Shown here piece by piece: positions 134 through 34,378 of a stretch of 34,378 nucleotides of DNA. Every line of letters begins with the position of its first letter. The first letter of the stretch is position 1. The position numbers and the translations under genes were made by a program. Origin of the DNA: a virus; the IMG/VR virus record IMGVR_UViG_3300021961_000316, positions 1 to 34,378 of that record, one strand, 5' to 3'. Under the pieces are notes generated by a model. The model worked only from the letters and a program-made list of their open reading frames with translations, made no database searches and had not been told where the DNA came from.

Positions 134-182
134 TGCCGGCGCGTGGAAATGCTGGCCCACCTGTGTGAATGATCTTTGCCAT
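1..182 (-). CDS. Small conserved phage protein spanning the contig join (N-terminal part)
   Basis: This is the N-terminal part of a 79-residue protein. It starts at ATG 182, whose last bases form a TGATG overlap with the stop of the Sak4-like gene, and it runs off the left edge. Joined to the piece at the right end it reads without interruption. It opens with MAKIIHTGGPAFP and contains GMSLRDYFAAKAMQ near residues 32-45. That GM(S/T)LRDYFA signature is common in small tailed-phage proteins of unknown role, often in early or replication clusters. There is no signal peptide, membrane segment or catalytic motif. Function unknown; the gene is well supported by coupling and by the intact frame through the join. 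Confidence 0.85.
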   Translation of the reverse strand, partial: MAKIIHTGGPAFPRAGKEWGDKAWTEAMAEEGMSLRDYFAAKAMQALLSHPDGDQISNPV

Positions 183-856
183 CACTTGCCTCCAATCTTG
201 GAAATGACTGCGCTCAGGTCCGGTGCCTCCCAGGCATCCAGCTTGCCGCTGCGATCCTTGGCCAGCCAGAGTCCATCCGAGTCGCACATCAGCGCACGCT
301 GGGTGGCTCCGTCGCCATCTTTCTCGACACGCAGGGCCAGCACCTCGTCGAAGAAGTAAGGCAGCGCCTGGCCGGTCTTGTTGCCAGGCATCGAGGGCGA
401 GTACAGAACCCGTCCCATCTCGTCCTGCGTCTTCTCCAGCTTTGCGCTCATGTACACATGGCGGCCAGGCAGATCGCGGAAAGCGCGAATGATGTCGGCC
501 ATCTGCTCCTGCATCGCACCGTAGGCCTGGCGTGGGTCTTTGGTGGCCTTCTTCTCGGTGTTCAGGCAGACCTCAGCGATCTCGCTGATGCTGTCCAGTG
601 CCACCGATTTGTAGGACTTGGCCTCGTCGCTGCTGGTCAGCCAGGTGTAAGCCTCCTGCAGCTCAGTCATTGAGGTGATCTCAATGAATGGCAGGTCGGC
701 GTCCTGTATGGACAACAGGCCGCCTTCAGCCGAGAGAACGATGGGCTTGGGCAGGCTTTTAATGAGGCTGGTCTTGCCAGCCCCTGCTTGGCCATAGACC
801 AAGACTTTTACGCCGTTGGCGGTCAGGCCAGCGGTCTTCTTCACGTTGATTGCCAT
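182..856 (-). CDS. Sak4-like RecA-fold recombination ATPase (AAA_24)
   Basis: A 224-residue cytoplasmic ATPase and first gene of the leftward early operon. It has a Walker A motif GQAGAGKT at residues 22-29 and a Walker B-like strand ending in VALDSIS near residue 87. Length and motif spacing fit the phage AAA_24 family that includes Sak4 single-strand annealing proteins, which pair ssDNA with help from an SSB. A DUF669-type SSB gene two genes downstream supports this. Start: ATG 856 is preceded by AAGGAG at an 8-nt spacing. The stop overlaps the next start as TGATG. The likely role is strand annealing in recombination-dependent replication. Members are often labelled only 'nucleotide-binding protein', so the exact activity is inferred. 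Confidence 0.85.
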   Translation of the reverse strand: MAINVKKTAGLTANGVKVLVYGQAGAGKTSLIKSLPKPIVLSAEGGLLSIQDADLPFIEITSMTELQEAYTWLTSSDEAKSYKSVALDSISEIAEVCLNTEKKATKDPRQAYGAMQEQMADIIRAFRDLPGRHVYMSAKLEKTQDEMGRVLYSPSMPGNKTGQALPYFFDEVLALRVEKDGDGATQRALMCDSDGLWLAKDRSGKLDAWEAPDLSAVISKIGGK

Positions 857-911
857 GAGTGGCTCTCCTTGGTAGTTGCTGCGCCTTTGGGTGATTCCGT
901 TCGCGCAGTGG

Positions 912-940
912 TTGCACTATACTCCAAAAAAATGTAGAAT
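912..940 (+). promoter_or_regulatory. Rightward sigma-70-type promoter
   Basis: A -35 box TTGCAC (912-917) and a -10 box TAGAAT (935-940) are separated by exactly 17 bp. Transcription would start near 947 and give a leader of about 33 nt before the XRE-like gene. Each box differs from consensus at only one or two positions. Confidence 0.7.
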
Positions 941-945
941 GTCAA
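916..945 (-). promoter_or_regulatory. Leftward early sigma-70-type promoter
   Basis: Read on the minus strand, a perfect -35 box TTGACA (945-940) is followed after 18 bp by a -10 box TATAGT (921-916). Transcription would start near 909 and drive the Sak4-like gene and the early operon. It overlaps the rightward promoter over 916-940, so the two cannot be occupied by polymerase at the same time. Confidence 0.75.
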
Positions 946-979: not shown

Positions 980-1168
980 ATGATGACCTTGGAGCAGATA
1001 CGAAATGCCCTATCTGACCGCATGCCGGTCAAGGTGGCAGAGGCCACCGGGCTGCACTACAACACCATCCGAGAGGTGCGAGACAACCCTGAGGCCAACC
1101 CGACCTACAAGGTAATGCTGGCTCTGTCCACCTACTTGGAAGGCCGGAGCAATGACCAGCAAAGCTGA
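980..1168 (+). CDS. Small Cro/XRE-like helix-turn-helix regulator
   Basis: A 62-residue protein (61 if the second ATG at 983 is used). It contains a helix-turn-helix of the XRE type: VAEATGLHYNTIREVRDNP, followed by a conserved tail in which a tyrosine precedes a LALSTYLEG-like helix. This is the minimal form seen in small phage regulators of the Cro type. It is the first gene rightward of the control region and probably binds the overlapping promoters at 912-945, so autoregulation and control of the leftward operon are likely. The ribosome-binding site is AGGGAA, about 6 nt upstream. Its 3' end overlaps the next gene by 17 nt. No dimerisation or inducer domain is present. Confidence 0.8.
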   Translation: MMTLEQIRNALSDRMPVKVAEATGLHYNTIREVRDNPEANPTYKVMLALSTYLEGRSNDQQS

Positions 1169-3041
1169 AGCAGCCCTGACCTACGCCTCTTGGGGCTGGC
1201 ATGTCATCCCGGTGGTCCCCAATGGCAAAGTTCCTGCCACCCAGCATGGGGTCAAGGATGCCACCACAGACCCCGAGCAGATCGCCAGATGGTGGGCACA
1301 GAACCCAGACTTCAACATCGGCATCGCAGCCGGTGAGCGATCTGGCATAGTCGTCTTTGACATCGACCCTCGCAACGGTGGCGATGCGTCATGGGCCGCA
1401 TGGCTCGATGCCAATGGGCGGCTTCCAGACGGTGCCATGCAGATGACCGCAGGCGGCGGTGAGCATCACCTCGGCGTCTACAACCCAGAGATCAGGTCTT
1501 GTAAGCTCGCTGAAGGCGTGGACCTGCTGGCCGATGGGCGCTACTTCGTGGCCTTTCCCTCAAGCATTGAAGGGCGCAGCTATCAATGGGAAGCCTCATC
1601 CGATCCATTTGACGGCGTGGCACCATTCACGATCCCCAGCCAATGGCTTGAGTCCTACAGGGCGATGCGCAAGCCTGCGGAGCGCCAGGCCAGCACCACT
1701 GGCGGCGGTCTGATTCAAGGCAGTCGAAACAACGGCCTGACAGCCCTGGGCGGTGCGATGCGGCGCTACGGCATGACAGAGGCCGAGATCATGGCCGCGC
1801 TGGCCATTGCCAATGAGACCCGCTGCGAGATTCCTCTGCCATCCTCTGAGTTGGTCCAGATCGTCAAGAGCGTGGCCAGGTACGAGCCGGAGAGCGATGT
1901 AGCGGCCTCAACAAGCATCGGCTCAGAATCTGCCGAGTTCATCTTGTCAGCAGCCCAGGCAGAGACGCAAGAATATTTTTTCACCCGCGCCACCTCCTAT
2001 CTTGGCCAACCCGCTCCCTTGCGCTGGATCATTAAGGGCTGGATTCCCGATAGTGGCGTGAGCATGGTTTATGGTGAGTCAGGCTCTGGCAAAACCTTCA
2101 TCACCCTGGACATGGCCTGCAATATCGCGGCAGGCTTGCAGTGGCATGGCCACAAGACCAAAGCAGGCTTGGTGGTCTACATGGCCGGGGAAGGGAACTA
2201 CGGCCTGCGCCAGCGGGTGACAGCCTGGTGCAAGGCCCACGATGTCCAAGAATTGGACAACCTCCTGATCTCGAACAAGGCAATCGACATCGACAGCCCA
2301 GCCGCGGCAGCCCAGATCATCAACGCGGTGCGCGAAATCACCCAGGACGATGCGGTGGCAATCTTTATAGACACTGTGAATAATCACATGTCTGGGGATG
2401 AGAACAGCGCCAAGGACACCCGCAACATGCTCAATGCCTGCAACATCGTGGCCAGGGCGCTTGGCTCCAGCGTGTGCCTCAATCACCACACCGGGCATGC
2501 AGCCGAATCCAAGCAGCGGGCGCGTGGCTCCAGCGCCTGGAAGGCATCGCTTGATGCCTCCATTCTTGTCTCCAAGAACGACAACAGCATCGAGATTACC
2601 TGCACCAAGATGAAGGACGCAGAGCCTCCGAATCCGTTCTTCGGCAAGCTGGAGACAGTGCCGCTGGGATGGATTGATGAGGATGGCGAGGAAATAAAAG
2701 GCGCAGTATTTGTGATTGAAGAAAATGCACCGGAGAAAAAGGAAAAAAAGGATTCTGAAATTCAAAAAGATATTCGCAAATTCACAAACGCTTGGTGGGC
2801 TGCTGGGGCTGAAGACCGAGACAAAATGCCTTATCTATCGCGCAGTGCATTACTTGAATATCTCACGATAAATGAAGGACTGACAGAATCTACTGCAAAA
2901 ACTTATGCCCAGGAAAGTAAAAAAGGCAGGTTAATTTATAACCTGCTAAACGCTCAAATTATTCGTGCTCATCAACATGGCTGGGTGGTCTGTGACAGCG
3001 CTACAGCGGCAACCTTGATGGTCCGAAGGACTGAAAAGTAG
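1152..3041 (+). CDS. Replication protein: primase-polymerase (Prim-Pol) plus RepA-like helicase
   Basis: A 629-residue protein. Residues 1 to about 190 match the bifunctional Prim-Pol domain: GWHVIPVVPNGKVPA at the start, the metal-binding pair in VVFDIDPRNGG (residues 72-82) and a following GGGEHH segment. A central RecA/RepA-like ATPase (AAA_25) has Walker A GESGSGKT at 308-315, a Walker B-type strand ending in FIDTVNNH and a conserved LNHHTGH segment. It should synthesise primers and unwind the origin. From about 2690 to the stop the DNA becomes much more AT-rich (22 of 60 bases are G or C in 2701-2760), so the C-terminal part, probably the DNA- or partner-binding domain, may have been exchanged. 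Repeats just downstream look like its target. Confidence 0.9.
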   Translation: MTSKAEAALTYASWGWHVIPVVPNGKVPATQHGVKDATTDPEQIARWWAQNPDFNIGIAAGERSGIVVFDIDPRNGGDASWAAWLDANGRLPDGAMQMTAGGGEHHLGVYNPEIRSCKLAEGVDLLADGRYFVAFPSSIEGRSYQWEASSDPFDGVAPFTIPSQWLESYRAMRKPAERQASTTGGGLIQGSRNNGLTALGGAMRRYGMTEAEIMAALAIANETRCEIPLPSSELVQIVKSVARYEPESDVAASTSIGSESAEFILSAAQAETQEYFFTRATSYLGQPAPLRWIIKGWIPDSGVSMVYGESGSGKTFITLDMACNIAAGLQWHGHKTKAGLVVYMAGEGNYGLRQRVTAWCKAHDVQELDNLLISNKAIDIDSPAAAAQIINAVREITQDDAVAIFIDTVNNHMSGDENSAKDTRNMLNACNIVARALGSSVCLNHHTGHAAESKQRARGSSAWKASLDASILVSKNDNSIEITCTKMKDAEPPNPFFGKLETVPLGWIDEDGEEIKGAVFVIEENAPEKKEKKDSEIQKDIRKFTNAWWAAGAEDRDKMPYLSRSALLEYLTINEGLTESTAKTYAQESKKGRLIYNLLNAQIIRAHQHGWVVCDSATAATLMVRRTEK

Positions 3042-3576: not shown

Positions 3577-3755
3577 CACCCATTCACGACTCCCCCAACT
3601 TCGCAAGCTGGCAACAAGAAACCCTCGCCAAGTTCGCAGCCGAGGTCTACGAACGACTGGTGGCCGAGCAGGCCGCAAACGAGCAGCTTCGCCTCGACCT
3701 TAAAGATGCCATGAAACTAGCGCGGCAACAAAATCTGAAAGACAATGCAGCATGA
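3573..3755 (+). CDS. Small conserved hypothetical protein, coiled-coil
   Basis: A 60-residue, mostly helical protein beginning MTPIHDSPNFASWQQETL. Residues 20-55 are rich in Leu, Glu and Ala with heptad-like spacing and could form a coiled coil. Both ends overlap their neighbours by the four bases ATGA, so it is translationally coupled to the HNH-like gene before it and the methyltransferase after it. Proteins with the opening MTPIHDSPNF occur widely in phages near replication genes, with no known function. There are no cysteines, membrane segments or catalytic motifs. Confidence 0.7.
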   Translation: MTPIHDSPNFASWQQETLAKFAAEVYERLVAEQAANEQLRLDLKDAMKLARQQNLKDNAA

Positions 3756-5014
3756 CCACAAAAACCCACAATCCCGCAGATAAAGTCGAACGCTGGAGCA
3801 TCGACAAGCTCACGCCCTACGCACGCAACAGCCGCACCCACTCCGACGAACAAATCAGCCAGCTGGCAGCCAGCATCAAGGAATGGGGCTGGACAACACC
3901 CGTTCTGGTGGATGAGGACGGCAGCATCATTGCCGGCCACGGTCGTACCCTCGCAGCTCAACGCCTCAAGATGACCGAAGTCCCTGTCATGGTGGCCAAA
4001 GGCTGGAGCGATGCCAAGAAACGCGCCTACGTCATAGCCGACAACAAACTGGCGCTGAACGCCGGCTGGGACAACGATCTGCTGGCGCTCGAGCTGGGTG
4101 AGCTAGGTGATCTTGGGTTCGATCTGAATCTGGTGGGGTTTACCGATGAGGAGATCGCGGCGCTAATGCCAGTGCAAGGCACCGATGGCCTCACCGATCC
4201 TGACGATGCTCCGGCCGTGCAAGAAAACCCGGTCACAGTGCCTGGTGACGTCTGGGTGATGGGAAAGCACCGCCTTCTGTGTGGTGATTCGACCAGCGTC
4301 GACGACCTGACAAAACTCACTGGCGGCCAACTGGTGGATATGTGGCTGACAGACCCACCATACAACGTGGCTTACGAGGGCGGCACAAAGGAAAAGCTGA
4401 CCATCAAAAACGACGAGATGGGCGACGATCAGTTTCGACAGTTCTTGCGCGATGCTTACACCGCTGCCGACATGGTGATGAAACCTGGCTCGGTGTTCTA
4501 CATCTGGCACGCCGACAGCGAGGGCTACAACTTCCGAGGCGCGGCCAAGGACGCTGGATGGACGGTGCGGCAGTGCTTGATCTGGAAGAAGTCCTCGATG
4601 GTCATGGGACGCCAGGACTACCACTGGAAGCACGAGCCGTGCCTGTACGGCTGGAAAGACGGTGCTGGACACCTCTGGGCGGCTGACCGCAAGCAGACCA
4701 CCATCCTGGAGTTCGACAAGCCCAGCCGCAACGGCGAGCATCCGACCATGAAGCCGGTGGCGCTGTTCGAGTACCAGATGCTCAACAACACAAAGGGCGG
4801 CGACCTGGTGCTCGACTCCTTCGGCGGCTCCGGAACCACCCTGATCGCAGCCGAGAAGAACGGCCGCACGGCAATGCTGATGGAGCTGAACCCGCGCTAC
4901 TGCGACGTCATCGTCAAGCGCTGGCAGGAGTTCACAGGCAAAATCGCAGTTCACGCAGAAACTGGACAACCTTTCGCGGAGGTTAAAGATGGCAGCACGA
5001 AAACCCACAATTGA
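3752..5014 (+). CDS. DNA methyltransferase with N-terminal ParB/Srx-like domain
   Basis: A 420-residue fusion. Residues about 14-110 form a ParB/sulfiredoxin-like domain with the signature IIAGHGRTLAAQRL. Residues about 170-405 are an N6/N4-type DNA methyltransferase with DPPYNV at 201-206 (catalytic) and DSFGGSGTT at 355-363 (AdoMet binding). Catalytic motif before the AdoMet motif is the beta-class order. It would methylate adenine (N6) or cytosine (N4) in phage DNA, protecting it from host restriction or marking it for replication or packaging. No partner restriction enzyme is present. The ParB-like part probably helps bind DNA or may hydrolyse nucleotide. It overlaps the small terminase gene by 26 nt, a placement common in phages. 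Confidence 0.9.
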   Translation: MTTKTHNPADKVERWSIDKLTPYARNSRTHSDEQISQLAASIKEWGWTTPVLVDEDGSIIAGHGRTLAAQRLKMTEVPVMVAKGWSDAKKRAYVIADNKLALNAGWDNDLLALELGELGDLGFDLNLVGFTDEEIAALMPVQGTDGLTDPDDAPAVQENPVTVPGDVWVMGKHRLLCGDSTSVDDLTKLTGGQLVDMWLTDPPYNVAYEGGTKEKLTIKNDEMGDDQFRQFLRDAYTAADMVMKPGSVFYIWHADSEGYNFRGAAKDAGWTVRQCLIWKKSSMVMGRQDYHWKHEPCLYGWKDGAGHLWAADRKQTTILEFDKPSRNGEHPTMKPVALFEYQMLNNTKGGDLVLDSFGGSGTTLIAAEKNGRTAMLMELNPRYCDVIVKRWQEFTGKIAVHAETGQPFAEVKDGSTKTHN

Positions 5015-27429: not shown

Positions 27430-27741
27430 CTACTGCGTGGCCTTGCGATTGCGGCAGGCCTCACGCATCGCTGGGGTGAAGTCAGGGTGAAACGATGCCA
27501 GGCTGCAGTCGATCACCCGTCTTTCAGGTGCGACTATTGCAGATGCTGCGATCAGGACGATCCACATGCAGGTTACCAGCACCACGGCCAGCACCACGAG
27601 CATGGCACTGGCCATCCTTTTCAGGTATCCAGCCACAGGGCTGGCAGACAGTGGCTCAGCAGCAAGCATGACTGGTCTGCACTTGGCCACACGGGCAGGG
27701 CACTCGCGGCCCTGCACGCAGTCTTGGTCACAGCAGTTCAT
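27430..27741 (-). CDS. Small membrane protein with N-terminal Cys-rich motif
   Basis: A 103-residue protein, last gene of the leftward operon. It starts NCCDQDCVQGRECPAR, a Cys-x3-Cys-x6-Cys signature seen in small phage proteins of unknown role. One transmembrane segment follows at about residues 43-68 (ASAMLVVLAVVLVTCMWIVL), then a short tail with three more cysteines. The start is ATG 27741, overlapping the upstream stop as ATGA; an earlier start would lack coupling. Combining the motif with a membrane span is unusual, since the Cys motif usually stands in soluble peptides of 40-70 residues. Confidence 0.65.
   Translation of the reverse strand: MNCCDQDCVQGRECPARVAKCRPVMLAAEPLSASPVAGYLKRMASAMLVVLAVVLVTCMWIVLIAASAIVAPERRVIDCSLASFHPDFTPAMREACRNRKATQ
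27435..27466. other. Hairpin at the convergent operon junction
   Basis: GCGT plus GGCCT (27435-27443) pairs with AGGCC plus ACGC (27456-27466) with a 2-nt bulge, giving a 9-bp stem 8 bp past the endolysin stop. No U-rich tail follows on either strand. It might slow or stop converging polymerases; it also lies within the coding end of the leftward gene. Confidence 0.3.
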
Positions 27742-27893
27742 TTGTCCAAGCCCAAGAACAAACATGCGTGCTTGTGGCTCACACCTTTGGAGTCGATGTA
27801 GTTCTCTCCGCAGCCGACCATCCACTCCATGAACAGGATTGCCATTGCCACACCGATTGCGGTGGCCAGCGCCAGGTTGAGCAGCTTTTTCAT
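27738..27893 (-). CDS. Small exported or membrane-anchored protein
   Basis: A 51-residue protein. KKLLNLALATAIGVAMAILF forms a signal-anchor or signal peptide (positive start, then about 18 hydrophobic residues), followed by WMVGCGENYIDSKGVSHKHA and a short tail. The sequence around Cys28 (VGCGE) is not a clean lipobox, so a lipoprotein is possible but weak. The start at ATG 27893 has GGAGG 7 nt upstream and overlaps the preceding stop as ATGA. Its own stop overlaps the next ATG the same way. The role is unknown; host-envelope interaction is conceivable. Confidence 0.65.
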   Translation of the reverse strand: MKKLLNLALATAIGVAMAILFMEWMVGCGENYIDSKGVSHKHACLFLGLDK

Positions 27894-28039
27894 TTCTTGG
27901 CCTCCGAAGGTGGCACCCAACCCATTGCGCGAAAGCGATCCATGATGTTGGTGGACGCTGCTGGCACGTAGCGCCAGTTTGGGTTTAGCAGGCTGGCCCG
28001 TTGGGCCAGCCAGGTTGGTTGTTGCTGGCTGTTTTGCAT
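27890..28039 (-). CDS. Small hypothetical protein, 49 residues
   Basis: Reads QNSQQQPTWLAQRASLLNPN, then WRYVPAAST, then DRFRAMGWVPPSEAKK. The start at ATG 28039 has a good AAGGAGAC site 5 nt upstream, and the stop overlaps the next start as ATGA. The C-terminal pattern (Y-V-P-A-x-S-T-x-I-x-x-R-F-x-x-x-G-W-x-P) looks like a compact conserved phage peptide. No known domain. It also contains a perfect 9-bp inverted repeat at 27991-28011. Confidence 0.65.
   Translation of the reverse strand: MQNSQQQPTWLAQRASLLNPNWRYVPAASTNIMDRFRAMGWVPPSEAKK
27991..28011. repeat. Perfect inverted repeat (hairpin) inside a small gene
   Basis: GGCTGGCCC (27991-27999), loop GTT, GGGCCAGCC (28003-28011). It encodes residues in the N-terminal part of the 49-residue protein. 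The stem is GC-rich and strong. Rightward it is followed by a moderately T-rich stretch, so it might hinder late transcripts entering from the endolysin side. Confidence 0.6.
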
Positions 28040-28049
28040 GGTTGTCTCC

Positions 28050-28235
28050 TTAGATTTTGAACTCATGGGCCTTCAGGAAGGCAATCTCTTGTTCGGTTGC
28101 CATGCACACGGACATCATGTGCTTTTGCAGGTAAGCCTGCAGCTTGGCCCTGTTGCTGGGCGATGGGCACTTGCGGTAGGTTTCGATCAGTCTGCTCACG
28201 TTCAGCTCCTTGCTGGTTGGTTGCGATGACTGCAT
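28050..28235 (-). CDS. Small conserved hypothetical protein
   Basis: A 61-residue protein from ATG 28235; an in-frame GTG at 28253 would add six residues, and neither has a strong ribosome-binding site. It contains LNVSRLIETYRKCPSPSNRA, then KLQAYLQKHMMSVCMATEQE and IAFLKAHEFKI. The final block (H-x-M-x-x-C-x-x-x-x-x-E-x-x-F-L-K-A-H-x-F-K) resembles small proteins found in many phage early regions. It is helical, with no cofactor motif. It sits 42 nt after the NrdR-like gene. Confidence 0.65.
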   Translation of the reverse strand: MQSSQPTSKELNVSRLIETYRKCPSPSNRAKLQAYLQKHMMSVCMATEQEIAFLKAHEFKI

Positions 28236-28264
28236 CTTACCACGATTTCCCACAATCTAATCAA

Positions 28265-28296
28265 CTAGGGATAAACCCTAGTCTTTTGCCTTTTTT
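28265..28296 (+). terminator. Possible rightward terminator inside the leftward operon
   Basis: CTAGGG (28265-28270), loop ATAAA, CCCTAG (28276-28281), followed on the plus strand by TCTTTTGCCTTTTTT. The orientation suits rightward transcripts, that is, late mRNA that has read through the convergent junction 840 bp earlier. The stem is only 6 bp and the T tract is interrupted, so it may instead be an operator or stabilising hairpin between two leftward genes. Confidence 0.4.
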
Positions 28297-28436
28297 GCAG
28301 CGATGATCTTGGCCACCTTCTCGAGCGTCGTGAAGCGGTGTTCATTGGCGCACTCGTAGCGGCGATATTTGGCGTTCTCTGCACGCTGGCGAGTTTCCTT
28401 CACCAGCGTCCAGGTGCCGCAGACAGGGCACTTCAT
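28278..28436 (-). CDS. NrdR-like zinc-ribbon protein
   Basis: A 52-residue protein beginning MKCPVCGTWTLVKETRQRAE, continuing RRYECANEHRFTTLEK. The arrangement CPVCG, then an ETR segment, then RRYEC and RFTT-x-E, copies the zinc ribbon at the start of NrdR, the ribonucleotide-reductase repressor. The second metal pair is changed: Cys29 and His33 replace the usual Cys-x2-Cys. The ATP-cone of NrdR is absent. It probably binds DNA or a host protein. It could imitate NrdR DNA binding to alter nucleotide synthesis, but that is speculative. The start overlaps the RHH gene stop (ATGA). Confidence 0.72.
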   Translation of the reverse strand: MKCPVCGTWTLVKETRQRAENAKYRRYECANEHRFTTLEKVAKIIAAKKAKD

Positions 28437-28606
28437 GCAGCCACCTTCTTGTTTTCGTCAGCCAGCCCCTGCTTGATGTAGTGCAATACCTGGGCGGCCA
28501 GTGTCCTGGTGTCGTTTTCTGCCTGGCGGCGCAGCGCCAGCTCAACATCTGCTGGGATGCGGATTGTCATGTAGCGATCCTTGGTCTTGGCGTCTGTGGA
28601 GGCCAT
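28433..28606 (-). CDS. Ribbon-helix-helix (Arc-like) protein
   Basis: A 57-residue protein. DRYMTIRIPADVELALRRQA matches the beta-strand plus first helix of Arc/MetJ-type regulators, and NDTRTLAAQVLHYIKQGLAD forms the second helix. It should dimerise and bind a DNA major groove through the strand residues Tyr-Thr-Arg region. The start is a TGATG overlap with the preceding gene, and the stop is an ATGA overlap with the NrdR-like gene, so it is tightly coupled within the early operon. It is a candidate regulator of early or late phage promoters. Confidence 0.75.
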   Translation of the reverse strand: MASTDAKTKDRYMTIRIPADVELALRRQAENDTRTLAAQVLHYIKQGLADENKKVAA

Positions 28607-28845
28607 CAGTCTGTGCCCCCAGCATTGGTGACCACATCCTCGAACATGTCTGCGGTGGCCTGGCCGGTGGCCAGCTCGACAGGGATGCCGTGCGTGAGCA
28701 GGCTTACCAGATCGTCCTGGCCAGCCACCTCGATGTCGAATCGGGTCTGGGCTGCGTACTTGATGGCCTGGGCCTGGTTGGCTGCACGAATCAGGCGGTG
28801 CTTGTTGGTTTCGGTGTCGGTGACGACATAGATGCGCGTGGTCAT
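28606..28845 (-). CDS. Conserved hypothetical early protein
   Basis: A 79-residue protein starting at ATG 28845 with AGGA upstream. It reads MTTRIYVVTDTETNKHRLIR, AANQAQAIKYAAQTRFDIEV, then GIPVELATGQ. The start (R-I-Y-V-V-T-D, then L-I-R-A-A-N-Q-A-Q-A) suggests a small alpha/beta fold found in phage early regions; the role is not known. It is coupled on both sides: ATGA with the VRR-NUC stop, TGATG with the RHH start. No metal ligands or membrane segment. Confidence 0.68.
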   Translation of the reverse strand: MTTRIYVVTDTETNKHRLIRAANQAQAIKYAAQTRFDIEVAGQDDLVSLLTHGIPVELATGQATADMFEDVVTNAGGTD

Positions 28846-29204
28846 GTGTTTCCTATGTGGTTGGTGAAAAAAGTGCTGATCTGCTCTTTTGCATGACCAG
28901 CACCTTTTCCCACTATACAACAGAATCCCACACTTTCCAGATATGCGATCCAGTCTTTTTGCTCAGCACTGAGGCTGCCGCCTTTGCTGCGTTTCATCTC
29001 GACCCACAGGCTCCAGGCAGGCACGAACAAGTCGGGCACGCCAGAGGCCACACCTTCGGCCTTCAGGCGGCCAGCGGTGGCTTTGCTCCTGGCCCCGCCA
29101 TTTGGGATCGCAAAAATGCGAACGCCTGGCCAGGACTGCCGGAACCAGCGCACCAGCTCGCGCTGCTCCTCATGCTCGGTTGGGATACGGCCTAGAACGG
29201 ACAT
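28842..29204 (-). CDS. VRR-NUC family nuclease
   Basis: A 120-residue stand-alone VRR-NUC domain (PD-(D/E)XK superfamily). EHEEQRELVRWFRQSWPGVR provides the N-terminal helix with its Glu, GVASGVPDLFVP gives the catalytic Asp, and WVEMKRSKGGSLSAEQKDW provides the E-x-K motif and the Q. Viral VRR-NUC proteins are thought to resolve Holliday junctions or cut branched DNA. That role would fit with Sak4, SSB and helicase in recombination-driven replication and in removing branches before packaging. The start is taken at ATG 29204, with GGGAG at 5 nt; a GTG 12 bp upstream is less likely. Confidence 0.88.
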   Translation of the reverse strand: MSVLGRIPTEHEEQRELVRWFRQSWPGVRIFAIPNGGARSKATAGRLKAEGVASGVPDLFVPAWSLWVEMKRSKGGSLSAEQKDWIAYLESVGFCCIVGKGAGHAKEQISTFFTNHIGNT

Positions 29205-29389
29205 TCTGGCTCCCACTTAGGGCAGGCATCCACCTCGGATGCAAACTCTGCTGGCGGCGTCATGAAGAACTCCACGCACAGGCCATCAACCCCATAGTGT
29301 TCGCAAGTAAAACAACACTTGGGCGGGCCAGCCCGTTCCCATTCACGCCATTGAATCAGGAACTCTGGCTCTGGTGGTCTGGTGGTCAT
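29192..29389 (-). CDS. Small zinc-finger-like protein (four-Cys module)
   Basis: A 65-residue protein with PPKCCFTCEHYGVDGLCVEF and, further on, EVDACPKWEPECPF. The spacing C26-x2-C29-x8-C38-x17-C56 is a likely structural zinc site, of the kind seen in many short phage proteins (C-x2-C-x(H/Y)...G-x-C...C-x-x-W). AAGGAGA is 4 nt upstream of ATG 29389. It overlaps the sigma-like gene by 47 nt and the VRR-NUC gene by 13 nt. A similar Cys module is appended to the PD-(D/E)XK nuclease in this operon. Confidence 0.7.
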   Translation of the reverse strand: MTTRPPEPEFLIQWREWERAGPPKCCFTCEHYGVDGLCVEFFMTPPAEFASEVDACPKWEPECPF

Positions 29390-29813
29390 GTCGTCTCCTT
29401 TGCTCGTACTTCCAAAAAGACCAGGGCATCACCCTGTCGTCCAATTCCCACATCGGCACGCCAGTCAGCTCTGACTGGTGCTTGCGAAACCTGCGCATTG
29501 CCTTCATCAGAATCTGGCGCACACGCTCTTGCGTGCGGCCCATCACCTCGCCTGCCTCGCGCAGCGTGTGGTTGTCCAGCACGCACAGGATGACAGCTTG
29601 CTCCTCCTGCTCGGTCAGCGGTGTGATGGCCACCAGGCGGCGCGCAAAGTCCTGCCTGATCCACAGATCAGGATCAGTCTGCGTCGGCCACCAGAAATCA
29701 ATCGGCTCGCATGGCTCTGGCTCAATGTGCCGGCTGTACCAGATGGCCTTGACCTCGCTGGGCAGGTTGGCCACACCCAGCTTGCCATAGTGCGGCAGGG
29801 CGCGGCCTCTCAC
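29343..29813 (-). CDS. Sigma-factor region 4-like transcription regulator
   Basis: A 156-residue protein from GTG 29813, which overlaps the helicase stop as GTGA and has GAGGAG upstream. Residues about 68-112 match sigma-70 region 4: LTEQEEQAVILCVLDNHTLR, then EAGEVMGRTQERVRQILMKA. In sigma factors the ERVRQI helix contacts the -35 box. Regions 2 and 3 (the -10 recognition parts) are missing. The protein could be an anti-host factor or, more likely, a late-transcription activator that docks at -35-like sites. The N-terminal 60 residues (including IDFWWPTQTDPDLWIRQDFA) have no assigned fold. Confidence 0.78.
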   Translation of the reverse strand: MRGRALPHYGKLGVANLPSEVKAIWYSRHIEPEPCEPIDFWWPTQTDPDLWIRQDFARRLVAITPLTEQEEQAVILCVLDNHTLREAGEVMGRTQERVRQILMKAMRRFRKHQSELTGVPMWELDDRVMPWSFWKYEQRRRHDHQTTRARVPDSMA

Positions 29814-31426
29814 TCCCAACTCCTCTTCAAAACACGGTGAAACTTCCCATCCATTTTGTATTCGATGGCCTTGGGCGGCTGGCTGTTGCTCATCTGCACG
29901 GCTAGGTAGTCCAGCCCCTCGCTATCGCTCATGCGCTCGGCCTCGGCCAAATGCGCCCCCGACGAGTTGGCCATGTTGAAAAGCTGCTGCATCGCCCGCT
30001 GCCCAGCATAGCCATCGTGCAGCACAGGCAGATATTCAATGATCGGCTTGTCGGACAGACTACCGTAATAAGTGCAGGACAACATCTCTTTGCCGCTGGC
30101 CTTGCTGATGTGCCTGCGCCAGTTCCAGGCAGTGACCTCTAGGTCTTTGCCTTCCAGGCCCATGATGTCGTCGTTTCGAAGCTCCAGTTTCTTGCGCTCC
30201 GGCTCGGGGAACGGATGGCCGCAAGCAGGGCAGGCAGCAACAGAGATGGCGCACAACTCTCCGCAGTTGTCGCAGACCTTCACTGGTGCCTCGCCATTGC
30301 CATCTCCTGCCTTCTTGGGAGGCTGCACTGCGGTGATCGGACCGTGCGTGGCCACCACCCCAGCAAAGTCCAGCACCAGGCAGTCGGCCTTGCCAGCGTG
30401 CGGCCTCATGCCTCGCACGGCCATTTGCAGGTAAAGCCCTGGTGACATCGTGGACCGCAAAAATGCAATGCAGTCCAGCGCAGGGAAGTCGTAGCCAGTC
30501 GTCAAAATTCCAACCGAGCAAATGGCACGCATACGCCCAGACTCAAAGTCAGATAGCTTGCGCTCTCGCTCCGACTTGCTATGCGTTGCGTCCAGGGCTT
30601 CTGCAGCAATACCGGCAGCACGCAGGCATTTAGCCACGGCCTCAGAGTGCGCGACACCGGAGCAGAAGATCAGCCAGTGTTTACGGCTGCTTGCCTTCTC
30701 AATGATTTCTTGCACCACAGCTTGGTTATGGTCATCGGTGTTGAACTTGGCTTCCATTTCAGACGCAATGTATTCTCCCTGGCGCTTATGCAGTCCGTCC
30801 GTCTCCAGCTTGTGCGTGGTGATTTTTGAGCGCAGCGGCACAAGGTGGGTTTTGAAAACCAATTCCTCAATGCTCACCGGCTCCAAAATCTCGGAAAAGA
30901 TTGCGGTTGGCCCTTCGGTTATTAGCCCTTGACCAAGACGGTACGGGCTGGCACTCAGGCCCACAATCCGCATGTCCGGGTTGATCTCCAGAAGGTCGGC
31001 GATCAGTTTGCGGTAAATGCCGTTCTCAGTGGTTGATACGGCGTGCACCTCGTCAATGATGCACAAGTCAATGTGCCCGATTTGCTTGGCGCGTTTGGCC
31101 ACAGACCCAATGCCAGCGTATGTGATTGGCTCCTCCAATTGACGCTTGCCCACGCTGGCGCTGTAAATGCCAAGAGGCGCACCGGGCCACAGCTTGCGCA
31201 GTTTGTCAGCGTTTTGAAGAATCAACTCTTTGGAGTGCACCAACATCAAAATTCGCGTCTCAGGCCAGTTTTGCAGCGCATCTTTGGCAAGCGACGCAAT
31301 CACTACGGACTTGCCAGACCCGCCTGGCATGTTCAATACTGGATGGCCTGTCGAATTTTTCTCAAACCACGCATACAGCATGTCCAATGCGCGAGACTGG
31401 TACTCTCGCAATTCTATTTTTTCCAC
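29810..31426 (-). CDS. SF2 DEAD/DEAH-box helicase
   Basis: A 538-residue superfamily 2 helicase starting at GTG 31426 (AGAGG upstream), inside the tail of the HNH gene. LREYQSRALDMLYAWFEKN is the Q-motif-like start. Walker A is MPGGSGKS at 33-40 and the DEAH-type box IIDEVHAVS lies near residue 125. Later come the SAT-equivalent VGLSAS, motif IV/V (ILTTGYDFPALD) and a Q-x-x-x-R-x-x-R-like motif VI (YLQMAVRGMRPHAG). A zinc ribbon (CDNCGELC, CPACGHPFPEP) lies near residues 390-420. It likely unwinds forks or recombination intermediates. The annotated start looks secondary: the original start seems to have been separated by the HNH insertion. Confidence 0.9.
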   Translation of the reverse strand: MEKIELREYQSRALDMLYAWFEKNSTGHPVLNMPGGSGKSVVIASLAKDALQNWPETRILMLVHSKELILQNADKLRKLWPGAPLGIYSASVGKRQLEEPITYAGIGSVAKRAKQIGHIDLCIIDEVHAVSTTENGIYRKLIADLLEINPDMRIVGLSASPYRLGQGLITEGPTAIFSEILEPVSIEELVFKTHLVPLRSKITTHKLETDGLHKRQGEYIASEMEAKFNTDDHNQAVVQEIIEKASSRKHWLIFCSGVAHSEAVAKCLRAAGIAAEALDATHSKSERERKLSDFESGRMRAICSVGILTTGYDFPALDCIAFLRSTMSPGLYLQMAVRGMRPHAGKADCLVLDFAGVVATHGPITAVQPPKKAGDGNGEAPVKVCDNCGELCAISVAACPACGHPFPEPERKKLELRNDDIMGLEGKDLEVTAWNWRRHISKASGKEMLSCTYYGSLSDKPIIEYLPVLHDGYAGQRAMQQLFNMANSSGAHLAEAERMSDSEGLDYLAVQMSNSQPPKAIEYKMDGKFHRVLKRSWE

Positions 31427-32175
31427 GTCACGCCTCTTCTGACATTGTTGATTGTTGATCTGGTGACACCAAACTTATCTGCCAGTTGTTGGCCATTCAT
31501 GTCAGAATTCAATATTTCTTTGGCGTTCTCTGCAGTCAGTTTTGATCTACCATTTTTTTCTCCAATGTAGTGCCTACCTTTTTGCAATGCGTCATGTGCG
31601 TTGTCTTTCTGTGTGCCGACAAAAAGATGGTCAGGGTTAACGCATCCTGGGTTGTCGCAGTGGTGGCAGACAATCAATCCTTCAGGAATCTCACCAATGT
31701 GAATCTCATACGATAGGCGGTGTGATCTTGTGTTTTGATTTGCGCCGGGCAAGATTCCATATCCATCTTTGTCGGTGTGCGCTCTCCATTGCCAACAACC
31801 ATTTTCAAGTTTGACAAACCGAGAAAAAAACCGGTCTTGCAAAGAACCAGATTGGCGCAGCCTCATTTCTTTCATGGCGACCGCGCTTTTCTCTGCTTTC
31901 AAACAACCGCAAGACTTGCTGCTCCCACTCCTGATGGTTTCGCCATAAACGACGCGCTGTGTGCCGCACTCACAAACACAGTTCCAAAACTTTCCAGTTT
32001 GTGATGCGCCAGATGGTTTTTGCGCTTCAGACACAACAGTCCACCTGTGAGACTTAAGTCCGACCATGCTGATGATTGGCTTGCCCATAATGCAAATGTC
32101 CTTGAGTTTATGAGGATATTTGCATTGTAACGCATAAAGCTGGTCAATGGTTCGCTGTTGGTAGTCACGCAGCAT
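31414..32175 (-). CDS. HNH homing endonuclease fused to a helicase-like N-terminal remnant
   Basis: A 253-residue protein. Residues 1-15 (MLRDYQQRTIDQLYA) copy a helicase start, not an endonuclease. Then come a Cys-rich domain (NCVCECGTQRVVYGE, KSCGCLKAEK), an HNH_3 domain (NGCWQWRAHTDKDGYGIL, then LIVCHHCDNPGCVNPDHLF with its HH, N and H residues), and a C-terminal DNA-binding helix-turn-helix (MNGQQLADKFGVTRSTINNV). It should nick or cut a specific site to spread. ATG 32175 is TGATG-coupled to the nuclease; an internal ATG at residue 31 (MGKPIIS) could be the native start. The DNA is AT-rich (21 of 60 G+C in 31501-31560). Confidence 0.9.
   Translation of the reverse strand: MLRDYQQRTIDQLYALQCKYPHKLKDICIMGKPIISMVGLKSHRWTVVSEAQKPSGASQTGKFWNCVCECGTQRVVYGETIRSGSSKSCGCLKAEKSAVAMKEMRLRQSGSLQDRFFSRFVKLENGCWQWRAHTDKDGYGILPGANQNTRSHRLSYEIHIGEIPEGLIVCHHCDNPGCVNPDHLFVGTQKDNAHDALQKGRHYIGEKNGRSKLTAENAKEILNSDMNGQQLADKFGVTRSTINNVRRGVTWKK
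31427..32130 (-). mobile_element. Putative HNH homing element inserted at the 5' end of the helicase gene
   Basis: The segment between the helicase-like remnant (32175-32131) and the working helicase start (31426) contains only the HNH reading frame. It is AT-rich, and it is flanked by two related in-frame copies of the helicase beginning: LRDYQQRTIDQLYA before, LREYQSRALDMLYA after. Boundaries are approximate. No group I or II intron core could be recognised by eye. This looks like a free-standing homing gene insertion with re-initiation of the host gene. Confidence 0.5.
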
Positions 32176-33206
32176 CAACCCACCACCCTCCCACCAAACT
32201 GCTTGCGCAGATCATGCAGTTGAGTCCAGCCCTTATCCGCACAGGCAGCAGCGTTTGCAAGCAGCTCCTTGGAGCTGAACACGCCTTCTTGCTCAGGGTC
32301 TCCGTTGGCCACATTCGTGCCATTGATCTCATAAACAGCCGTCCACTCGTCTGGCCCGTCCTTGCGCTGCCAGGCCACCAGATCAGGATGTAGGACATGT
32401 CCTTCACATCCAGTGCGCTGGGCATCCACTGGAATCACAGCATCCCACTTGGCGCAGTGCCACTCGCTGGCCTTGGTGGACGTGCTGTGTGCACAGGTGC
32501 GGCAGTTCACATGCTTGGTTGTCTTTGTGCTGTGGCAGAACTCGTGCGCATCGCAAAACTTGCACTGATACCAGCTCGGGTCTGTGCTGATCGGTGGCGG
32601 CATCCGATCCTCTGTGGCCAGCCTGTGGCCTCGCTGGATGTACTTCTCGGCCACTTCTTTGTCGTAACGCACTCGCTCGGTGTGGATACGGTCATCGTCC
32701 TTGCAGACAGCCAGATAAAAGGCACGGTCGATCTTGGTGCCGTGCATGTAGAGCTGCATCTGCACAAAATGCTCGGGCTTGGACTTCTCCACGCCTTCTT
32801 TCACCAGGTCATCAAATGACTTCTTGCTGTGCGTCTTGAACTCGGCCACATGGCGCTTCTTGGGCGCTTCTGGCACGCCAGACTCGATGATGGCGTCCAG
32901 GCTGCCGGACACATGGCAGCCAAGGTCTACCCTGGTCTGCTTGCCTGATGTGCTGCGAATGTCCATGCCAATGGCTCGCAGGTCGCTGATGATGTTGGCC
33001 TCCTCGAGCTGGCCCCTGCGGAACAAACGCAGGATGCGGCCAGGGAACTTTGACTGCACAGCCCAGCGAAACGACAGCCACAGCCAGCGGTCGCATGCGT
33101 GGCCAAGCTGGCTGCAGCCCATGTGGCCCCTTGGCTGCTCAGCTTTTGCTTCGTGCGCTTTGTCAATCAGCGCCTGGATGGTATGCTCTGACTCGGGTAT
33201 CTTCAT
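32175..33206 (-). CDS. PD-(D/E)XK exonuclease with Cas4/AddB-like Fe-S cysteines
   Basis: A 343-residue nuclease starting at ATG 33206 (AAGGAG upstream). Core motifs are GHACDRWLWL (Cys38, Arg40), GSLDAII (Asp104), AEFKTHS (Glu122, Lys124) and QMQLY (Gln149-Tyr153), the RecB-type arrangement. Cys38 together with CKFCDAHEFC (Cys215, 218, 224) reproduces the C ... C-x2-C-x5-C pattern that holds a 4Fe-4S cluster in Cas4, AddB and Dna2. A second Cys set (235, 238, 251, 267) forms a separate C-terminal zinc-like module, then a helical tail. It would resect DNA ends to give ssDNA for the Sak4-like protein. No CRISPR genes are present. Confidence 0.87.
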   Translation of the reverse strand: MKIPESEHTIQALIDKAHEAKAEQPRGHMGCSQLGHACDRWLWLSFRWAVQSKFPGRILRLFRRGQLEEANIISDLRAIGMDIRSTSGKQTRVDLGCHVSGSLDAIIESGVPEAPKKRHVAEFKTHSKKSFDDLVKEGVEKSKPEHFVQMQLYMHGTKIDRAFYLAVCKDDDRIHTERVRYDKEVAEKYIQRGHRLATEDRMPPPISTDPSWYQCKFCDAHEFCHSTKTTKHVNCRTCAHSTSTKASEWHCAKWDAVIPVDAQRTGCEGHVLHPDLVAWQRKDGPDEWTAVYEINGTNVANGDPEQEGVFSSKELLANAAACADKGWTQLHDLRKQFGGRVVG

Positions 33207-33234
33207 GCCCGTCTCCTTTTGGTAGTTGCCCATT

Positions 33235-33267
33235 GCCCCAGGTTCCTCACGGTTCCTGGGGCTTTTT
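33235..33267 (+). terminator. Terminator-like hairpin between SSB and nuclease genes, rightward orientation
   Basis: GCCCCAGG (33235-33242) pairs with CCTGGGGC (33255-33262) around a 12-nt loop and is followed by TTTTT on the plus strand. That is a textbook intrinsic terminator for rightward transcription. All genes here run leftward, where the hairpin lacks a U tail. It may stop antisense or read-through transcripts, or act in leftward mRNA as a stabiliser or attenuator in the 66-nt gap. Confidence 0.6.
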
Positions 33268-33272
33268 CTTGC

Positions 33273-33794
33273 TTACTTCTTGACCCAGGGCGGCGAGGCC
33301 TTGGCCGGTGCAGACGCTGCTGCCGGTGCTGCTGCCGGTGCAGCGGCCTGGAAGGTTGGCGCTGCACCACCGTTGATCGCACGGTAACCCTTGACCTCGT
33401 TGCTGGCCTCGTAGGTCTTGCCGGTCTTCTCGTCGGTGCGTGCTGCTCGAATGGTCAGCTTGATGTTGACATTGCCACCGATGAGCTGGTCGGTGTCGGT
33501 CACCTTGGCCAGCCCAACTGCACGCATGATGTCGCCAAGCTGCTGGCGGCCAATCTCCTCGGCCTTGGCACTAGCGTTCTTGATGTTGAGGTTCGAGAAG
33601 ATCACCCGACCCTGGTGGCTCGGTCCGGTGATGTCCAGGCGCAGCTTGATGTACTGGCCCGTGCCGTCGTTGGTGGCCTTCAGTTCAGCCTGGGTGACAG
33701 TGGCGTTGTAGTTGCCTTCAGGCAGCGGCTCGAAGTTGCCGCCAGTGCCTTGCGGCAGTTCGTTTGCGTCGAAAGTTTGTCCAAGAAAAGCCAT
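33273..33794 (-). CDS. Single-stranded DNA-binding protein (DUF669-like)
   Basis: A 173-residue protein. PLPEGNYNATVTQAELKATN and GTGQYIKLRLDITGPSHQGR form the OB-fold start typical of the DUF669 family. VIFSNLNIKNASAKAEEIGR and NGIxxAVG-type helices follow, and the Ala/Pro-rich linker ends in the tip SPPWVKK. Flexible tails of this kind in SSBs recruit partner proteins, although here the tip is basic rather than acidic. It would coat ssDNA for the Sak4-like annealer and the replication proteins. GGAGTAATCATC precedes ATG 33794. The terminal hairpin region lies just after its stop. Confidence 0.87.
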   Translation of the reverse strand: MAFLGQTFDANELPQGTGGNFEPLPEGNYNATVTQAELKATNDGTGQYIKLRLDITGPSHQGRVIFSNLNIKNASAKAEEIGRQQLGDIMRAVGLAKVTDTDQLIGGNVNIKLTIRAARTDEKTGKTYEASNEVKGYRAINGGAAPTFQAAAPAAAPAAASAPAKASPPWVKK

Positions 33795-33799
33795 GATGA

Positions 33800-34192
33800 T
33801 TACTCCTTGATGGTGATTTTGAAAGAAGGGCGGCCAGGCTTGGCCGTGATTGCGCCAGCCAGTGGCCGAGTGATGCGCTCGTCGGAGGCCTTCCAGATGG
33901 CCATGTTGATCTCAGGCGTCCAGCGAAACAGGCTACTCAGGTGTTCGGTCAGGCCAGCCTCTGCGGCCAGCTCCTGCAGCTTGTCGGAATCAACCTTGCG
34001 GTCAATGCGGCCAGCGATCTTGACCACAAAGCCTTCTGGCTCAGCAGTCTCAGTGCCCTCGAAGTTCTCAGCCAAGGCCAGCAACTTGACGATCTTGTCC
34101 TCGATCTTGCGACGCTCAGTCGTGGCATTGCCTTCTTCGGACTTGTAGCGCAGCCAGTCTGCGCTTAGTGCTTTCAGGTCAGGCTGCATCAT
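33800..34192 (-). CDS. Conserved early phage protein (DUF7173-like)
   Basis: A 130-residue protein. Residues 1-45 are helical and charged (DLKALSADWLRYKSEEGNAT, ERRKIEDKIVKLLAL). A small beta part follows (EGFVVKIAGRIDRKVDSDKL), then a helical section with LFRWTPEINMAIWKASDERI, ending RPSFKITIKE. This order, next to a DUF669-type SSB and a Sak4-like ATPase, is recurrent in phage recombination operons; the protein may be an accessory of that complex. Two adjacent ATGs (34192, 34189) are possible starts; the first overlaps the previous stop as ATGA and has AGGAAATC upstream. Confidence 0.72.
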   Translation of the reverse strand: MMQPDLKALSADWLRYKSEEGNATTERRKIEDKIVKLLALAENFEGTETAEPEGFVVKIAGRIDRKVDSDKLQELAAEAGLTEHLSSLFRWTPEINMAIWKASDERITRPLAGAITAKPGRPSFKITIKE

Positions 34193-34378
34193 GATTTCCT
34201 CACTTCCAGCATCGCGTCGGCCAGTACATAGGCTGCTTGCGCGTAGATTACGGGATTTGAAATTTGGTCACCGTCTGGATGACTTAACAGTGCTTGCATG
34301 GCCTTTGCGGCGAAGTAATCTCGCAGGCTCATTCCTTCTTCCGCCATTGCTTCAGTCCATGCTTTATCTCCCATTCTT
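34189..34378 (-). CDS. Small conserved phage protein spanning the contig join (C-terminal part)
   Basis: The C-terminal portion of the 79-residue protein that begins at 182. It ends with IYAQAAYVLADAMLEVRKS and a TGA that overlaps the next ATG. Inside the repeated segment the missing C (three here, four in the left copy) makes an apparent new start ATG at 34374 and breaks the upstream frame. The true protein is read from the left copy into the unique bases 34246-34189. Confidence 0.85.
   Translation of the reverse strand, partial: RMGDKAWTEAMAEEGMSLRDYFAAKAMQALLSHPDGDQISNPVIYAQAAYVLADAMLEVRKS
34247..34378. repeat. Terminal direct repeat, right copy (contig overlap)
   Basis: 132 bases that duplicate positions 1-133 except for one missing C in the run at 34370-34372. 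Trimming it leaves a circular unit of about 34,246 bp. The single indel in a homopolymer near the very end suggests a sequencing or assembly error. Confidence 0.95.

Follow-up and report, generated by a model that had tools for sequence, protein, structure and literature searches.

Overlapping divergent promoters are already known as a kind. In bioA/bioBFCD of E. coli, in tetR/tetA of Tn10 and in the mer promoters, they are placed under one regulator, which makes them similar to the phage promoter pair described here; they differ from it in that bacterial or transposon genes are served and small-molecule signals are involved. Competition at overlapping promoters has been documented (PMC12825309, PMC4207663). 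The bacterial bidirectional promoters (Warman, Grainger; PMC12825309) resemble the phage pair in being pseudo-symmetrical DNA that gives rise to divergent mRNAs and, as is predicted for the phage, accommodates one polymerase orientation at a time. According to the same work, interference between overlapping promoters requires strong or activated transcription and is not seen at basal level; at each of the five bidirectional promoters tested, basal transcription was too low for competition. The Pc/Pr pair of pLS20 with its regulator RcoLS20 (PMC4207663) shares with the phage pair the overlap of divergent sigma-type promoters, their unequal strength, a geometry that should admit one polymerase at a time and an HTH regulator encoded on one side. 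According to Bendtsen et al. (cited in PMC4207663), an overlapping pair becomes a switch only if the promoters are unequal and a regulator acts differently on each of them. In the open-licence papers searched, no phage precedent for an overlapping divergent pair was found.

Results

Promoter geometry and strength: The features of the locus are collated in Table 1; positions refer to the window, that is, the whole stretch of 34,378 nucleotides that was analysed. On recheck, the coordinates and hexamers given for both promoters in the preliminary description proved exact. The spacers are 17 bp (rightward) and 18 bp (leftward), and TTGACA/TATAAT-like hexamers of the sigma70 type at a spacing of 16-18 bp are present in each direction. 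The stretch common to both promoters (916-940) comprises 25 bp, with an overlap of 2 bp between the rightward -35 and the leftward -10 (916-917) and of 1 bp between the leftward -35 and the rightward -10 (base 940); 13 bp lie between the two -10 elements. Transcription starts are predicted at about 909 (leftward) and about 947 (rightward), that is, about 38 bp apart. Because 25 bp of core promoter are shared, mutual exclusion is likely, in line with the earlier view that this geometry should admit one polymerase at a time. The promoters had also been said to face each other, which has to be corrected: the arrangement is divergent, with arrows pointing outward and polymerases moving apart, and a convergent reading was rejected on this ground.

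Table 1. Positions of promoter elements, leader features, genes and transcription units in the window.
Feature	Position	Strand	Basis
Rightward promoter -35, TTGCAC	912-917	+	Sequence; with its -10 ranks 7
Rightward promoter -10, TAGAAT	935-940	+	Mirrored TAnnnT in 93/100 relatives
Leftward promoter -35, TTGACA	940-945	-	Consensus scan and matrix score
Leftward promoter -10, TATAGT	916-921	-	Scan, matrix score, relatives
5'-Terminal hairpin, leader of the leftward (Sak4) mRNA	878-909	-	Covariation, CM match
Leftward ribosome-binding site AAGGAG	865-870	-	Sequence
Probable rightward ribosome-binding site AGGGAA	968-973	+	Sequence
Sak4-like RecA-related ATPase (AAA_24), first leftward gene	182-856	-	Pfam PF13479, 3.5e-29
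Cro/XRE-like HTH protein (62 aa), first rightward gene	980-1168	+	PHROG 18104, fold model
Prim-Pol primase/helicase, second rightward gene	1152-3041	+	Pfam Prim-Pol 1.9e-33, AAA_25, PriCT_1
Rightward unit	980-27426	+	ORF layout, PHROGs
Leftward unit, continued past the circular junction	27738-34378	-	ORFs, domain matches, 132-bp terminal repeat

Both promoters had been called strong. This held for the leftward one, which ranked first (14.6 bits) among the 68,704 positions scored on both window strands with a simple sigma70 matrix and agrees with the consensus at 11 of 12 bases. The rightward one (rank 7 and 9.6 bits in the same scan, 8 of 12 bases) is moderate, strength being judged by score in both cases. 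The consensus scan returned the leftward promoter and missed the rightward one because TTGCAC agrees with TTGACA at only 3 of 6 bases.

Genome layout: The ends of the window carry an inexact direct repeat of 132 bp (1-132 and 34247-34378, 97% identical), and the map is therefore effectively circular with a length of about 34.2 kb; by its sequence, the genome is circular or terminally redundant. On the circular map, almost every gene belongs to one of two units that start at the 123-bp intergenic region (857-979); the exception to this layout is a short region at about 27.4-27.7 kb, in which the units converge. The rightward unit contains genes for the HTH protein, Prim-Pol, a methylase, terminase, portal, coat, tail and lysis; portal, scaffold, coat and neck genes are of the P22 type, and tail and endolysin genes are also present. 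At 3752-5011 (+), a ParB-like N-terminal domain is fused to an N6/N4 DNA methylase. The first gene of the leftward unit encodes a Sak4-like ATPase (76% to the Sak4-like protein of phage 1N2-2), beyond which DUF7173, DUF669, an exonuclease-like protein, a helicase, a sigma region 4 protein, VRR-NUC and a weak Arc-like ribbon-helix-helix (RHH) match were found. The sigma-70 region 4 protein (29343-29819, -; Pfam 7.4e-11) occurs without other sigma domains and is a possible regulator of later transcription; the small Arc-like RHH protein (28433-28606, -; weak match to PHROG 228, 0.0015) is a candidate for a second regulator. An HNH endonuclease ORF (31414-32178, -) is located directly upstream of the helicase ORF (29810-31426, -), and its N terminus is similar to that of the helicase (MMLRDYQQRTIDQLYAL vs. 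ELREYQSRALDMLYAW), which gives the appearance of a helicase gene into which an HNH element has been inserted.

No match to an integrase or to a CI-type repressor was obtained among the ORFs scanned (Pfam, PHROGs), and the annotations of the complete relatives ct3Oc712 and 1N2-2 contain neither. The hallmarks of lambdoid lysis-lysogeny control, namely a divergent CI-type repressor gene and an integrase, are thus missing from the scanned ORFs, the first leftward gene being Sak4, and a temperate switch was rejected because repressor and integrase are both lacking. A related roseophage group is likewise without integrase and probably strictly lytic (PMC12629253). The phage comes from fresh water and is apparently virulent. 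A host search in genome contigs with the Prim-Pol protein gave 81 pattern matches, 0 of which were confirmed.

Conservation of the promoter pair: Relatives (233 loci) were obtained from three scans of viral contigs, and their intergenic regions were compared; the promoter tests were run on intergenic sequence, and the automatic choice of start codon was wrong for some relatives. Two promoters of at least 6 bits each with an overlap of at least 20 bp were present in 58 of 101 distinct regions (dinucleotide shuffles: mean 3.5, maximum 9), and a mirrored TAnnnT -10 pair with a gap of 3 or 12-15 bp in 93 of 100 (shuffled: mean 9.5, maximum 19); the relatives are kin and not independent samples, the shuffle comparisons overstate significance, and the counts serve as a guide rather than as probabilities. 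The three inner bases of the -10 elements vary freely (14 leftward and 19 rightward hexamers), and a fixed TAnnnT with free inner bases is the pattern expected if both strands serve as promoters. The rightward -35 is retained as TTGCAN or TTGAAC in many relatives. About 12 bp between the -10 elements are missing in a gap-3 subclade (L102, L139, L152 and similar loci, upstream of the HTH gene), in which both promoters were re-formed with other -35 elements (mostly 8.4 bits rightward and 10.4 bits leftward). A subclade with weak -35 elements (gap 15) is a real exception; where the -35 elements are poor, the rightward promoter scores below 6 bits in many members. Judged by its ranks in the window and by these comparisons, the promoter pair is real, conserved and functional-looking, and not a chance match.

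Mirrored overlaps were also recognised in named phages: Idiomarinaceae phage 1N2-2 (TTGACT-17-TATGAT/TTGACA-17-TAGATT, 12.9/13.6 bits), Alcaligenes phage CASP1 (TTGCCA-17-TAGAAT/TTGACA-17-AATAAT, 13.1/13.1 bits), Alteromonas phages PB15 (11.2/13.5 bits) and XX1924 (11.4/13.6 bits) and, in a weaker version, Salicola phage CGphi29. In the first four, the pair is located between a leftward ATPase gene (Sak4-type where annotated) and a rightward HTH gene. In the annotation of 1N2-2, two divergent blocks extend from the promoter region, with the exception of one HNH gene. The head and tail genes of 1N2-2 are of the siphovirus type and those of the window of the P22 type; the regulatory module is therefore common to different structural types. 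Stenotrophomonas phage vB_SM_ytsc and Microcystis phage Me-ZS1, which have the same gene order and a more distant Sak4, carry two separate divergent promoters with the -10 elements 73 bp apart. Such separate promoters, with the ATPase/HTH/primase order retained (loci L244 and L247), provide a natural contrast to the overlap.

These data bear on a serious rival explanation, according to which the promoters would be ordinary compact divergent ones that overlap simply because the intergenic space is small and the sequence symmetrical, and the overlap would play no part in regulation. Such a view is in keeping with the frequency of bidirectional promoters in bacteria (19% of the E. coli RNAs detected; PMC12825309) and with the finding of that study that basal competition was not seen at them. 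The overlap is, however, kept across different hosts, head types and distances between the -10 elements (11-15 or 3 bp), both promoters were re-formed in the subclade with the shortened spacer, and the 73-bp spacing in distant phages of the same order argues that the overlap is not forced by gene order. An incidental overlap is consequently considered unlikely, though it deserves to be taken seriously.

The preliminary description had interpreted the pair as a two-way switch between a recombination operon and a replication/late operon. If the region were a genuine two-way switch, whether bistable or temporal, repression of one direction by the Cro-like protein would free the other, and leftward recombination would be followed by rightward late expression. 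The presence of unequal overlapping promoters with the regulator gene on the weaker side, as in Pc/Pr of pLS20 (PMC4207663), and a left promoter about 5 bits stronger in the window are in its favour. The distribution of functions speaks against it: Prim-Pol is encoded on the right and Sak4, DUF669 and the exonuclease on the left, so replication/recombination genes are present in both operons, both units are needed for DNA work, and there is no clear early/late division. Moreover, no repressor gene opposes the Cro-like gene and no integrase was matched in the ORFs scanned, and in relatives with regulator type C the rightward promoter is equal to or stronger than the leftward one, from which it follows that the polarity is not conserved. 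The two-way operon switch is therefore not supported and is judged rather improbable.

Leader hairpin: The leader of the leftward mRNA can be folded into a hairpin in which an internal loop separates a 6-bp stem from a short inner stem capped by a loop. Across 17 diverse leaders, 96.7% of the cells were paired and 43 cells were changed on both sides, giving a covariation score of 0.757 (0.171 shuffled, at most 0.18 slid); in 93 leaders, 97.2% were paired, versus 66% shuffled and 34-38% slid. Scores of relatives carry the hairpin, the stem differing among them. Its covariance-model match (35.1 bits) is a single copy in the window, and no Rfam match was obtained for the region or for the whole window. 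The leaders of 1N2-2 and CGphi29 fold with the same outline, and covariance model R1 gave no score for these two phages. The hairpin begins exactly at 909, the predicted leftward start, and thus provides independent support for the left promoter. Our guess is that this element, close ahead of the ribosome-binding site, stabilises the mRNA at its 5' end or binds a protein; with its covariation, it is a further candidate regulatory RNA.

Regulator gene and its exchange: That a Cro/XRE-like gene comes first on the right was borne out. The 62-residue protein matches PHROG 18104 (transcriptional regulator, 1.2e-9), and its predicted structure is a four-helix HTH (pLDDT 90.8), the nearest PDB folds to which are XRE HTH proteins (best 2ofy, TM 0.66 but E 0.026). 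No Pfam match was obtained for it even at E<=1, P22_Cro (PF14549) included, and no PDB match with the single sequence; a PDB search with a profile of the Cro-like protein gave weak XRE matches. By its modelled compact helical fold and its PHROG regulator match, the protein is assigned to the Cro/XRE-type HTH proteins. Relatives carry other HTH families at the same place, among them P22_Cro and HTH_3 types (P22_Cro match of 1.7e-18 in regulator type B). The first rightward gene is thus swapped among unrelated HTH/Cro families, and the mirrored layout stays.

In 70 pairs of relatives, the leader is near-identical (score >0.93) and the regulator different; in the best of these, such as L168 and L169, Sak4 is identical too. 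Divergence within the swap pairs starts at or just before the left -10; the right part of the promoter region is thus exchanged together with the regulator, and both modules contribute to each promoter. Leader, promoter, Sak4 and regulator gave similarity matrices that are all correlated with one another (rho 0.13-0.48); it is the individual swap pairs, and not these correlations, that support a module boundary.

Within a regulator type, conserved blocks extend over the right -10 and the left -35, where an operator is expected, and the Cro-like protein presumably binds at the promoter region. The mirror could also be mainly a dyad operator, that is, a binding site of the regulator, with the promoter likeness of one strand being incidental. 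Such an explanation would account for the type-specific blocks, which follow the regulator type, and for the near-perfect inverted repeats seen in several relatives (L027, L048). Both strands, however, keep only the promoter-defining positions (TAnnnT with a free middle), and the mirror persists while the regulator family changes. A Cro operator sought as a type-specific palindrome did not exceed column-shuffled controls in any of four regulator types, a type C palindrome over the left -35 (AGTGCAAGCACT) being suggestive only, and the sigma70 matrix scan found no further strong promoter-like site in the 123-bp intergenic region. An operator as the main function of the mirror is therefore regarded as very improbable.

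Discussion

We consider it probable, with some reserve, that this apparently virulent phage has a single master promoter region, 912-945, in which polymerase competition and autoregulation set the ratio of the two directions. This proposal builds on the promoter pair, its geometry and conservation, the two-unit genome and the regulator exchange, all of which are read from the sequences. Two sigma70-type divergent promoters would be packed as mirror images, each -35 lying on the other's -10, and host RNA polymerase would fit in only one orientation at any moment, so that every binding would start either the leftward or the rightward unit. The leftward choice would yield Sak4 recombination and accessory genes, and the rightward choice the Cro-like regulator, Prim-Pol and the packaging, structural and lysis genes. 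The ratio of the two units would be fixed by the intrinsic promoter strengths, the left being stronger here; that the left promoter is strong in the window makes interference plausible. The small HTH protein, which would be the first product of the rightward unit, would most likely bind in or beside the shared region and adjust or shut down early transcription as a negative feedback. Control of the ratio is, like binding of the Cro-like protein, something that we infer. Regulation could, however, pass to two proteins of the leftward unit, the sigma region 4 and the RHH protein. We do not think that the region is a bistable switch.

A wider reading is put forward more tentatively and is rated as less likely than not: a widespread lytic phage group may run its whole genome from a mirror-symmetric pair, at which every polymerase that binds would choose between the two genome halves and which would act as a docking joint for swappable Cro/HTH cassettes, with competition keeping the units in proportion and no lysogeny switch. 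Cassettes could then be swapped with both promoters left intact, since each has its -35 in the other module.

What sets the phage case apart is that a single pair seems to be the only conserved site from which the entire genome is entered in many phages, and that the precise mirror persists through replacement of the regulator gene, beside relatives with separated promoters. The occurrence of overlapping and separated arrangements in cultured phages makes the regulatory use of polymerase competition testable.

The comparison with the known systems can be summarised as follows. In pLS20, the overlapping pair controls plasmid conjugation with the aid of multiple RcoLS20 motifs and DNA looping, whereas the phage pair, at which no operators were found, drives two units of a lytic phage. 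In bidirectional promoters of the Warman type, the -10 is shared or overlapping and the starts are usually 10, 18 or 23 bp apart (PMC12825309); the window pair falls outside this class, since its -10 elements are separated by 13 bp and its predicted starts by about 38 bp, and since the -35 of either promoter overlaps the -10 of the other. The immunity region of lambda and P22 (cro, PR/PRM, PL) is similar in that a Cro-type protein comes first in the rightward unit, and the likeness to P22 extends to a P22_Cro-family gene at the same place in some relatives. The layout is nevertheless unlike that of lambda or P22, as the preliminary description had maintained: there is no CI/C2 gene between the units, there are no separated operators, and the leftward and rightward lytic promoters coincide.
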